Part shown: positions 15,594 through 22,223 of the stretch, piece after piece
How positions within the stretch are numbered: position 1 is the first letter of the stretch
How the letters are laid out: the number at the start of each line of letters is the position of its first letter
DNA from: a virus
Direction: 5' to 3' (one strand)
Length of the DNA: 26,226 nt
IMG/VR virus record: IMGVR_UViG_3300034072_002195
Coordinates: 1 to 26,226 of that record
Position numbers and translations under genes: made by a program
Notes under the pieces: model-generated
What the model saw: only the letters and a program-made list of their open reading frames with translations
The model's database searches: none
What the model was told of the DNA's origin: nothing

Positions 15594-15911
15594 TTACGTT
15601 TGCAAGCCGATGAGGATGCGAAGCCGCTGGAGGTACGCATCCATCTGAGCCTTGCCATTTTCGGGATTGCTACCGTCGTCGTAAAAATAGATGCGGTCGC
15701 CCTCGCCCTTGCCGTCGATGTCCAGCTTTTTCAGCGTCGCTGGGCCGAGGCCCTTGATCTGCAATTTGTGCTTGGGGTCATCCCACTCCGACCAATCGCG
15801 CGTGATCGTGCCCAGGGTCTTGTAGTGCCGGTTGAAGAACGTCCACGACCCGTCGGGGTTTTTCGCCATGCCGTATGGGAACATCGACTGGCGCACATTT
15901 GGATTGTGCAT
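15594..15911 (-). CDS. Unknown 105-aa protein
   Basis: The ATG at 15911 was chosen over an in-frame GTG at 15920 because GAGAGG lies 7 nt upstream of it. The product (MHNPNVRQSMFPYGMAKNPD) is polar, with a beta-like start (SWTFFNRHYKTLGTI), a middle with KLQIKGLGPATLKKLDIDG and a C-terminal helix (AQMDAYLQRLRILIG). The NRxYKxLG pattern seems to recur in phage and bacterial hypothetical proteins, but I cannot name the family. It follows the 373-aa gene with a 15-nt gap, so they are probably co-transcribed. Confidence 0.6.
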   Translation of the reverse strand: MHNPNVRQSMFPYGMAKNPDGSWTFFNRHYKTLGTITRDWSEWDDPKHKLQIKGLGPATLKKLDIDGKGEGDRIYFYDDGSNPENGKAQMDAYLQRLRILIGLQT

Positions 15912-15926
15912 TATTGCCACCTCTCG

Positions 15927-17048
15927 TTATGCTAGATTGACCGCTCCCTTGAAGCGGCTATTTCCTTCGAACTTGACCGGTACAGCCACGCGGCTATCCC
16001 CGTCGATAATCGTTGCTGCCGTTGGGATCGTACCTTCCCAATGCAAAATTACCACCTGCTGGTCCATGACCGGCGATTTGAAGCAGTGCGTGTCTTCGCT
16101 GGCATACAGCCCGCTCATCGTTGAATAGGACGCCACGCCGGTCTGCTTTGCCTCCTGGGGCACCACCGCATCCGCGACATCGCTTGCCATCATCGAGAGC
16201 CACGCTCCGTTGCCCTGGGTCTCGGGGATCGCCTCCAGCTCGCCGAAGAAGGGGTTGAAGCTCAGGGGGAAACGGATGCCGCCCACTTCCAGGTTGCCGG
16301 TGGCGCGCAGCTTACCCCGGCGCTTGTCCTCTTTGACCCAGATCGTCAGGGCGTCGCGCTTGTCCGCGCCGCGCTTCCTATGACCCAATTCTTCCGTCTC
16401 ACTTCCTGGATGAATGGGAGGAGGCTCAGTGCCGTCATGTTGTTCTGGCTGAACTTCTGGCGTAATAGATGGCTGAATTCCTGGCTCCTCATGGACATGC
16501 GAAGCAGCGATCATGCCAGGCTCATGATTTAGTTTAGTTTCCATTAGTTTACTTGAGTACCAAAACCTCAGCTTTTCTGCGAGGTTTGGCGTCATATCTG
16601 CTGAAACGGTGCTGAACTGATGCTGAAAAGATGCTGAAACGATGCTGAAATACTGCTGAAAGGCCTCCATCAATTCAGCATCCTCGACTTCCGTTTCAGC
16701 AGTCGTTTCAGCAGCACCGCCAGGAACTGCACGGCTCTGGCCATCGGCGTACAGCTGATCAAACGGCGCCATGTCCTTCCATCCCATCTTCGCAGCATAG
16801 GTGCGCTGGTGACGAGAGAGGACAATCGGTCCGTCATGCTCGATATCGACCTTTGCACGAATGCGGATATTGGACAGCAGAGCGTCTTTGACCTTGCCGT
16901 CGATGCCACGAGGATGGAACAGCCCGGATACAGCCTTGCTGACTGCGCCGTAGGTCTTCTTGTCCTGGATGAAATTGAATTCGCCCGTGCCAATGGTTGC
17001 GAGCACGGCCTGAACGTGGGCTAGCCACTTGGTGTTGTTTTTTCTCAT
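15927..17048 (-). CDS. Unknown 373-aa protein with a repeat-bearing linker (candidate replication-associated protein)
   Basis: The start MRKNNTKWLAHVQAVLATIG at 17048 has GAGG 6 nt upstream; the open frame goes on to 17099 without a better site. Residues 1 to about 105 form a compact N-terminal domain, possibly DNA-binding (AVSKAVSGLFHPRGIDGKVK). Residues about 115-250 are low-complexity and acidic or proline-rich. Residues about 255-373 form a second, beta-rich domain (GKLRATGNLEVGGIRFPLSF to the C-terminus). The DNA coding the linker holds six 11-bp direct repeats and an AT-rich tract. A two-domain protein with origin-like repeats in the linker-coding DNA recalls lambda O. No initiator motif was recognised, so the replication role is inference. 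A terminator-like hairpin lies in its leader. Confidence 0.65.
   Translation of the reverse strand: MRKNNTKWLAHVQAVLATIGTGEFNFIQDKKTYGAVSKAVSGLFHPRGIDGKVKDALLSNIRIRAKVDIEHDGPIVLSRHQRTYAAKMGWKDMAPFDQLYADGQSRAVPGGAAETTAETEVEDAELMEAFQQYFSIVSASFQHQFSTVSADMTPNLAEKLRFWYSSKLMETKLNHEPGMIAASHVHEEPGIQPSITPEVQPEQHDGTEPPPIHPGSETEELGHRKRGADKRDALTIWVKEDKRRGKLRATGNLEVGGIRFPLSFNPFFGELEAIPETQGNGAWLSMMASDVADAVVPQEAKQTGVASYSTMSGLYASEDTHCFKSPVMDQQVVILHWEGTIPTAATIIDGDSRVAVPVKFEGNSRFKGAVNLA
16525..16713. other. Candidate replication origin or regulator-binding array
   Basis: Three elements lie together inside the 373-aa gene. An AT-rich tract at 16525-16557 has about 24 percent GC in a clearly GC-rich window and contains TTTAG repeats. 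The six 11-bp repeats lie at 16599-16664. Three inverted copies of the core (TTCAGCA) lie at 16674-16680, 16695-16701 and 16707-16713. Iterons next to an easily melted tract are the plan of iteron origins. The alternative is an autoregulatory binding array or simple slippage. Confidence 0.45.
16599..16664 (+). repeat. Six direct repeats with exact 11-bp period (TGCTGAA core), iteron-like
   Basis: Units start at 16599, 16610, 16621, 16632, 16643 and 16654. Each begins TGCTGAA; the remaining four bases vary (ACGG, CTGA, AAGA, ACGA, ATAC, AGGC). The period is not a multiple of three, so the repeat is kept at DNA level rather than as a peptide repeat. Eleven bp is about one helical turn, which would place all sites on one face of the DNA. 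Confidence 0.85.
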
Positions 17049-17059
17049 GTCAAACCTCA

Positions 17060-17104
17060 AAAATGAACAAACCCGCCTGTTGCGGGTCCAGTGCAACAAG
17101 CGGG
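17060..17104 (-). terminator. Terminator-like hairpin (possible attenuator) in the leader of the 373-aa gene
   Basis: On the minus strand CCCGCTTGTTGC (17104-17093) pairs with GCAACAGGCGGG (17083-17072) around a 9-nt loop with one G-U pair, followed by TTTGTTCATTTTT. It ends only about 12 nt before the start codon at 17048. It may stop read-through from the HNH gene or attenuate transcription from TAAATA element 7 at 17190. Confidence 0.55.
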
Positions 17105-17184
17105 CGTAGATTTGTTCAATTGGGGTTGTGAACTACGGGACCGCTGTCATGAGCGACAGCTTTTGGACCCTGTGCTCACATCAC

Positions 17185-17190
17185 TATTTA
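17185..17190 (-). promoter_or_regulatory. TAAATA element 7 (minus strand) before the 373-aa gene
   Basis: On the minus strand GGAATAC then TAAATA then GTGATG, between the HNH gene stop (17214) and the 373-aa gene start (17048). The leader would be about 130 nt and would contain the terminator-like hairpin. Confidence 0.4.
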
Positions 17191-17213
17191 GTATTCCTCG
17201 TCAAAAAATGTCA

Positions 17214-17729
17214 TTAATGAAATGATTTACGCCCTCTATCCATCTTGCTCATCGTGATGGCTTCTTCAATCGTGTACCCGCGCTTTATGCGACCGTGCAA
17301 AGCGCTCCTAGTCAGGCCCAGGCGCTTGGCCCACTGAGGCAGCGTAAGGCTCTCACCGTTGTAGGTGAACACGTTGGCATTGGTAGTTTTCGGACCGCTA
17401 CCAACACGCGTCTTGCTCCGTGCCCGCTTCACTCGAATAATGATCTTTTTCTTTCTCGGGCGCTGGTTCGCACTCTGCTCGGCGCGGGTTGCCCATCTAC
17501 AGTTTCCCGGCTCGTAGTTCCCGTCGTTATCAATGCGTTCGAGTGAATGACCGTCTGGGCGCTTCCCCATGTCATCAAGAAAAGTTTCGAAGCTGTCATA
17601 CCAACGGTCGCAGACCTCTATCCCGCGACCACCATAGTTGCAGAACCACTTCAGTTTGGGATTACGGCAGCGGTGGCGCATGGCCAACCACGAATTGTAT
17701 TCTCGTTTGTTCTCTGTGATCAGTGTCAT
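17214..17729 (-). CDS. HNH-like homing-type endonuclease with C-terminal helix-turn-helix
   Basis: A 171-aa protein from the ATG at 17729; another ATG at 17750 has no better ribosome binding site, and 17729 fits the TAAATA-to-ATG spacing seen elsewhere. Residues about 18-90 carry HRCRNPKLKWFCNYGGRGIE, then VCDRWYDSFETFLDDMG, SLERIDNDGNYEPGNCRWAT and EQSANQR. This is the signature of a large phage family usually called HNH-like or homing endonuclease, where the His/Asn-rich element near the end supplies metal and catalytic groups. A basic linker follows, then a helix-turn-helix at about 130-165 (LTLPQWAKRLGLTRSALHGR) for DNA recognition. It lies alone between unknown genes, as a mobile gene would. 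A second family member is at 21657. Confidence 0.75.
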   Translation of the reverse strand: MTLITENKREYNSWLAMRHRCRNPKLKWFCNYGGRGIEVCDRWYDSFETFLDDMGKRPDGHSLERIDNDGNYEPGNCRWATRAEQSANQRPRKKKIIIRVKRARSKTRVGSGPKTTNANVFTYNGESLTLPQWAKRLGLTRSALHGRIKRGYTIEEAITMSKMDRGRKSFH

Positions 17730-17734
17730 GCATA

Positions 17735-17740
17735 TATTTA
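17735..17740 (-). promoter_or_regulatory. TAAATA element 8 (minus strand, leaderless position)
   Basis: On the minus strand AACCAT then TAAATA then TATGC and ATG; the first T is 11 nt before the ATG at 17729, the same spacing as elements 5 and 9. No Shine-Dalgarno is present. It supports the start chosen for the HNH-like gene. Confidence 0.45.
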
Positions 17741-17860
17741 ATGGTTGCATGATCTGGGCGTCATTTTAGAAATGCCAGCGCTACTCCTGCTTTGGAGAAA
17801 CGGGGCCCGCCGATGCCGTCCTGTTTGCGACCACACAGCACCAGCGAGCCCCGTCCTGAA

Positions 17861-21568: not shown

Positions 21569-21656
21569 CGAGTACTTACCAGTGCGTTATAGCAGCACTT
21601 AACGTCGCATGTATCTCGATAAGTACTCTCGGAAACAAGGTTCCGAGGAGAGAGAC
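21569..21656. promoter_or_regulatory. Divergent control region between endolysin and HNH-like gene
   Basis: The 88-bp gap contains GAGTACTTA at 21570-21578 and its exact inverse TAAGTACTC at 21620-21628, both with the palindrome AGTACT, and between them AGTGC/GCACT at 21581-21585 and 21595-21599. GAGGAGAGAGAC just before 21657 is the ribosome binding site of the HNH-like gene. The nested inverted repeats look like binding sites for a dimeric regulator of both genes. Confidence 0.5.
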
Positions 21657-22223
21657 ATGCCTAGAAAGAAGAACAATCCACCATCACTACGTCAGCGACA
21701 CTTCCGAGAGTATCAAGCCTGGATCAATGCAATCCACCGCTGCCACAATCCCCGCAATCTAGCTTACAAGCGCTATGGCGCACGCGGCGGCATTGAAGTT
21801 TGCGGGACCTGGCGCGATGCAGAGAACGGCTTCCAGAACTTCTTCAATGATGTGGGAGTACGTCCAGAAGGCGACTACAGCCTGGAGCGCATCGACGGCA
21901 GCAAGGGCTACTCACCCGACAATTGCATCTGGGCGGATCGCAAGACACAACAGAACAACCGTTCTGGCTACAACCGCACCGAAGGCTACGGCCACGGCGT
22001 TGATCGCTACGGCAGTCCCTTTCTGGAATACCGGGGCGAGATCAAGACACTGGCCACATGGGCACAGGAGCTAGGGATTAAGGCTCCGACGATCCGCCAG
22101 CGCCTAGAGCGCGGAATGACTGTGGAACAGGCTTTGTCCGACCAGTCCTATCGCAGCATCGTAGATCGCCAGAAGCTTCTAACCTCCATGCTCGTCCGCA
22201 ACGACAGCCCAACGATCCACTAA
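21657..22223 (+). CDS. HNH-like homing-type endonuclease, second copy of the family
   Basis: The start at 21657 has GAGGAG 6 nt upstream; the frame runs on to 21609 without such a site. The 188-aa protein is a divergent relative of the one at 17214: AWINAIHRCHNPRNLAYKRY at 21-40, GARGGIEVCGTWRDAENGFQ, FFNDVGVRPEGDYSLERIDG, then GYSPDNCIWADRKTQQNN at 84-101. The GNCRWAT element of the first copy is here DNCIWAD. A helix-turn-helix follows at about 137-165 (IKTLATWAQELGIKAPTIRQ), probably for target binding. The last 20 residues have no counterpart in the first copy. The two copies differ enough to be separate acquisitions. Confidence 0.75.
   Translation: MPRKKNNPPSLRQRHFREYQAWINAIHRCHNPRNLAYKRYGARGGIEVCGTWRDAENGFQNFFNDVGVRPEGDYSLERIDGSKGYSPDNCIWADRKTQQNNRSGYNRTEGYGHGVDRYGSPFLEYRGEIKTLATWAQELGIKAPTIRQRLERGMTVEQALSDQSYRSIVDRQKLLTSMLVRNDSPTIH

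Follow-up and report, generated by a model that had tools for sequence, protein, structure and literature searches.

An 11-bp iteron array within a gene of a siphovirus record related to Sphingomonas prophages, a candidate initiator gene carrying its own origin

The window, i.e. the whole stretch of DNA that was analysed, is the entire sequence of a 26,226-base virus record, probably a fragment, and carries a siphovirus tail module on its plus strand up to approximately 15.2 kb. On the minus strand at 15927..17048 is a gene of 373 aa (P373), which is the candidate initiator considered here. Its product consists of a conserved N-terminal domain (aa 1-110), a linker that bears a repeat array in its coding DNA, and a conserved C-terminal domain (aa 230-373). 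The protein had zero matches in Pfam, PHROGs, NCBIfam, PDB, named phages, plasmids and viral contigs, while homology to plasmid Rep families was searched for and was absent. An earlier note on this DNA had stated that P373 resembles no known initiator, and the empty database and lambda O comparisons bore this out. Single-sequence AlphaFold models, with a helical N-terminal domain and pLDDT values of 36 and 41, were not good enough to be compared with known folds. The neighbouring minus-strand genes at 15594, 18206 and 18802 matched no family in Pfam, PHROGs or NCBIfam.

A promoter-like pair identified by eye (ATGACA and TAAATA separated by approximately 18 nt) was located on the minus strand at 17185..17215, upstream of a structured leader RNA (17046..17184) that ends at the P373 start codon, and its position was conserved in the relatives. 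An HNH-endonuclease-type gene (17214-17750) is directly upstream of this promoter region, and a second gene at 21609-22223 was assigned to the same type solely by its similarity to the first.

Six direct iterons of 11 bp, each made up of the heptamer TGCTGAA and 4 nt, were located on the plus strand at 16599..16661, with starts at 16599, 16610, 16621, 16632, 16643 and 16654 that give a period of exactly 11 bp. They point away from an A/T-rich tract of TTTAG/TTTA pentamers (approximately 16522..16560), a candidate unwinding element that is A-rich on the coding strand and lies approximately 40 bp from the first repeat. In 32-bp windows the AT content of the record peaked in two places with equal values, the tract at 16522-16560 and the promoter region at 17185-17230. 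Three inverted copies on the minus strand (16674..16713; TTCAGCA at 16674, 16695 and 16707) are on the side of the array opposite the tract, and the order in the coding direction of P373 is inverted copies, direct array and A-rich tract. The repeats, their period, the inverted copies and the tract had been described in the earlier note, as had the location of the array in linker-coding DNA between two domains, and all were confirmed.

The P373 gene contains nine copies of the heptamer. No more than six appeared in any of 20,000 permutations of synonymous codons, and no more than five in any of 20,000 redraws from the codon usage of the window. The period-11 autocorrelation was 47/66 compared with a maximum of 41 in 1000 synonymous permutations. 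These permutations ruled out chance or codon bias as the source of the array. No DnaA box with one mismatch or fewer was found near the array in the window, and GC skew did not switch at the array.

Relatives of P373 were reached from a tail protein that led to a Sphingomonas prophage, and subsequent family and genus searches gave L010, L013, L014 and an N-terminal fragment, L015. The relatives sit in Sphingomonas-group genomes, the family being present in 3 of 295 Sphingomonas genomes, and all except L010 are in prophages that share the tail module of the window, past the tail-tip genes. The L013 protein was 39% identical to P373 over its length and the L014 protein 26% identical, while that of L019 was cut to 157 aa and retained the N-terminal domain only. 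The L010 copy belongs to an island (L016:1342-9459 of G394) in which inspection by eye showed large serine recombinases, two in number, together with an ORF like the C-terminal part of prokaryotic Argonaute. Searches of viral contigs with the P373, A2, A3, L013 and L014 proteins gave no further family members, and L011 was discarded as a chance match. The closely related sister phage L008, which is 75-95% identical to that of the window across most shared genes, had neither the P373 gene nor the array, which indicates that the putative P373 replicon is at least replaceable. The same slot of the sister phage (L008:8380-8560) contains three copies of TACTTCACTTCAAA adjoining an AT-rich TATATACTACTACGTAGTAGATA, perhaps an origin of another type.

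In the related loci and the flanking DNA that were searched with TRF, 11-bp arrays of more than two copies were confined to the array sites set out next. The L013 array kept the repeat of the window at the 11-bp pitch, with six copies in direct and about four in inverted orientation. The L014 gene carries its array at the corresponding position, where AGCGGAATGGG occurs three times inverted and CCATTCCGCTN seven times direct with an 11-bp spacing, and this repeat unit (AGCGGAATGGG / CCATTCCGCT) encodes a peptide unrelated to that of P373. The L019 array (TTACTGAACGC, 11 bp, about 7.6 copies and one inverted copy) is located in intergenic DNA without an ORF of at least 40 aa, with A-rich pentamers (GTAAAGTAAAGTAACGTAGC) approximately 45 bp ahead of it. 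An A-rich pentamer tract was also present in L010, L013 and L019, and an A-rich tract in L014. In the orientation of the window, the window, L013, L014 and L019 shared a layout of A/T-rich tract, a spacing of 40-85 bp, outward-pointing iterons and inverted copies, with identical iteron polarity relative to the tract in all four and a loose core of (G/A)CNGAA common to the repeat units. Identical residues of P373 and L013 were encoded by the same codon at 49 of 58 positions in the array and linker compared with 39 of 81 in the domains (Fisher p = 1.4e-5).

Order, polarity and rough spacing were conserved across the relatives, which argues that selection acts on the DNA, and it is strongly supported by these comparisons that the array is a real feature selected as DNA. 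The earlier note had reached the same conclusion from a unit length that is not a multiple of three, an argument insufficient alone; the conclusion held on other grounds, namely three iteron sequences in one layout, once outside a gene, and conserved linker codons. Three units (33 bp) correspond to 11 codons and the array encodes an 11-aa peptide repeat, FQxxFSxVSAx, therefore a unit length not divisible by three cannot by itself exclude selection on the peptide. On this arithmetic, and on the FQxxFSxVSAx repeat that P373 and L013 have in common, one could argue for tandem expansion of a low-complexity linker, under selection for a peptide repeat of 11 residues or under no selection at all. 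However, L014 has the DNA layout with another unit and another peptide, the L019 array is outside genes and slippage does not produce inverted copies, and we regard such an expansion as highly improbable. The peptide-repeat reading is contradicted by L014 and L019. A site for a host factor is also unlikely, since related prophages do not share one repeat unit. A comparison of the repeats in homologues, as the earlier note had proposed, gave a divided result: L013 keeps the repeat and L014 and L019 keep the layout with other units, whereas L010 keeps the protein, the leader and CGAAA pentamers but its 11-bp signal was not significant (equalled in 82 of 1000 permutations), an outcome that the note had named as counting against its reading.

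The same iteron was found in viral contigs as two exact triple matches, L020 and L021, both at unrelated loci. The first (L020:4577-4605) is in the regulatory region of a Mu-like phage, where three exact TTCAGCA copies at an 11-bp pitch are located beside a repressor-like gene. Arrays with inverted copies commonly are operators, and P373 or a prophage repressor might bind such an array to control transcription or immunity, with a roadblock or autoregulatory site inside P373 and an upstream operator in L019, whose array is upstream of a 178-aa gene. The three-copy L020 array would fit an operator as well. In three homologues, however, the array is approximately 330-450 nt into the gene with the promoter far away, and operators do not need an A/T-rich tract held at 40-85 bp or a constant polarity. 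An operator is therefore considered unlikely, if the most plausible of the alternatives to an origin.

The leader RNA of approximately 135 nt directly precedes 5/5 of the family genes found (window, L013, L014, L010 and L019). It folds into a small hairpin, a long terminator-like hairpin with a loop that forms a pseudoknot by pairing with sequence further upstream (7-9 bp in 8/8 sequences; GGGTCC/GGACCC in the window), and a stem over the Shine-Dalgarno sequence. Other copies were located at L008:8671-8812, L016:11479-11607, L017:10377-10509, L018:9416-9561, L019:9396-9532, L043:9030-9157 and L044:2326-2461. Outside the family the same leader precedes a NUMOD3 gene in L008, a gene resembling superfamily-2 helicases in G872:C28 and, in G872:C23, a gene of 538 aa that belongs to no known family, and it stands ahead of at least four unrelated kinds of gene. 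In eight sequences the observed level of pseudoknot complementarity was reached by 6 of 40,320 reassignments, and that of the Shine-Dalgarno stem by one of 40,320, the true one. Pairs changed on both sides numbered 16 compared with 2-4 with slid partners, in an alignment fitted to part of this structure. The leader had no match in Rfam at the gathering score and chance-level matches only below it. It appears to be an undescribed, covarying pseudoknot RNA with a stem that would mask the ribosome site, and a translational switch would be its simplest reading.

Six TTACAGTGCGCTA-like repeats, several at multiples of 11, are intergenic and upstream of the 538-aa gene of G872:C23 (L041:1712-1966), in a module that recurs in opposite orientation close to each end of an 87.5-kb contig. 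The occurrence of such repeats by a leader-bearing gene is consistent with a slot for replication genes, although the leader also precedes the NUMOD3 gene and is therefore no proof of a replication gene.

The G991 prophage, the best-mapped of the related prophages, was mapped from its serine integrase to the right-end genes and includes terminase, portal and tail/structural genes. No recognisable helicase, primase or other initiator was present among its genes scanned against Pfam and PHROGs. Between its integrase and large terminase genes (L025:9214-11425) are genes for J-domain and RelA/SpoT-domain proteins. The exchange of slot content between sister phages, with the NUMOD3 gene included, and the position of the L010 copy beside large serine recombinases and a pAgo-like ORF would fit a cargo site under a common leader, with P373 an accessory (moron) DNA-binding protein, e.g. 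for anti-defence or silencing, served by the array. Such a role is improbable given the lack of another recognisable replication gene in the genes scanned from the G991 prophage and the iteron-like repeats that flank the leader-bearing gene of G872:C23, and it would leave the A/T-rich tract and the polarity unexplained.

Partition centromeres typically consist of short direct repeats spaced at helical pitch, and the related elements, being temperate, might be maintained as plasmids; the array could be such a centromere, comparable to the iterons that ParR or TubR binds, with P373 as the centromere-binding protein. This is just as doubtful as the accessory role. No ParA, ParM or TubZ-type NTPase was found next to P373 or among the subset of ORFs scanned in related prophages, the serine integrase and large contigs indicate that the related elements are chromosomally integrated, and centromeres do not require adjacent A-rich pentamers.

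A linked protein gene with in-phase iterons and a low-melting, strand-asymmetric tract is the anatomy of an origin, and the array is probably a site of replication initiation not described before, with P373 as its dedicated initiator. We favour, with some reserve, the reading of the P373 segment as a lambda-O-like initiator gene that holds its own origin, in a protein family unrelated to lambda O. The array, its layout and polarity, the DNA-level constraint, the leader covariation and the prophage context are known here from sequence, and from them we infer binding, melting, recruitment, replication and switching. P373 would bind the 11-bp iterons, most likely via its N-terminal domain, and wrap the DNA so that each helical turn takes up one protomer. 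The A/T-rich pentamer tract beside the array would then be melted by P373, and host replication proteins would be brought in via its C-terminal domain. Translation of the initiator would be set by the pseudoknot leader hiding or freeing the ribosome-binding site. A broader and more tentative possibility is that the prophages of sphingomonads share a slot for replicons, where initiator-type genes of unrelated families are swapped together with their own iterons under one conserved pseudoknot riboregulator, and that P373 founds a new initiator family with the origin inside or outside the gene.

If the initiator reading is right, it would add an initiator family without a sequence tie to known ones, and the lambda plan of an origin within the initiator gene would have arisen more than once. 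Small replicons for use in Sphingomonas could also come from it, and phage translation control would gain a new class in the covarying pseudoknot leader. Three natural iteron sequences with related proteins make a recognition code directly testable.

Several known systems share parts of this arrangement. Origins of iteron plasmids (pi, RepA, RepE and TrfA type) have, like P373, direct repeats beside an A/T-rich tract, but plasmid iterons are usually 17-22 bp and P373 matched no Rep family. The repABC plasmids of alphaproteobacteria have their origin inside repC. ParR/parC and TubR/tubC centromeres have short direct repeats at helical pitch, as in the P373 array, whereas here a partition NTPase was not found and the array is tied to an A-rich pentamer tract. 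In IncI-type repZ the leader of the replication gene forms a pseudoknot with the ribosome site in a stem, which is alike the P373 leader, although the structure differs and Rfam gave no match. The closest parallel is lambda O with ori-lambda, together with the O genes of Stx phages. The lambda O and P373 proteins have no detectable similarity (hhalign probability 0.1%; no Pfam, PHROG or NCBIfam match), and lambda has four iterons of 18 bp compared with the 11-bp iterons and inverted copies of P373. Initiators of the lambda O type bind their iterons through an N-terminal winged-helix domain and have a partner helicase loader gene, P, as neighbour. Unlike lambda, P373 has no P-like gene recognised alongside, has a separate promoter and a pseudoknot leader, and has one relative with the array outside the gene: linker-coding iterons were inside the gene in the window, L013 and L014, intergenic in L019 and not detectable in L010. 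The proposal of the earlier note that the gene follows the lambda O plan and contains its own origin is accordingly retained for its geometry, as the best-fitting mechanism with an unrelated protein, and is weakened by L010. In lambda O the iterons are at codons ~116-144 and are followed by an A-rich coding strand (PMC7466680; also computed here). In P373 the iterons span codons ~111-151 and the tract spans ~163-174, towards the C-terminal-coding end as in lambda O. Both genes have mid-gene iterons in the linker between two domains and then, in coding order, an A-rich tract, which in P373 is a candidate unwinding element.
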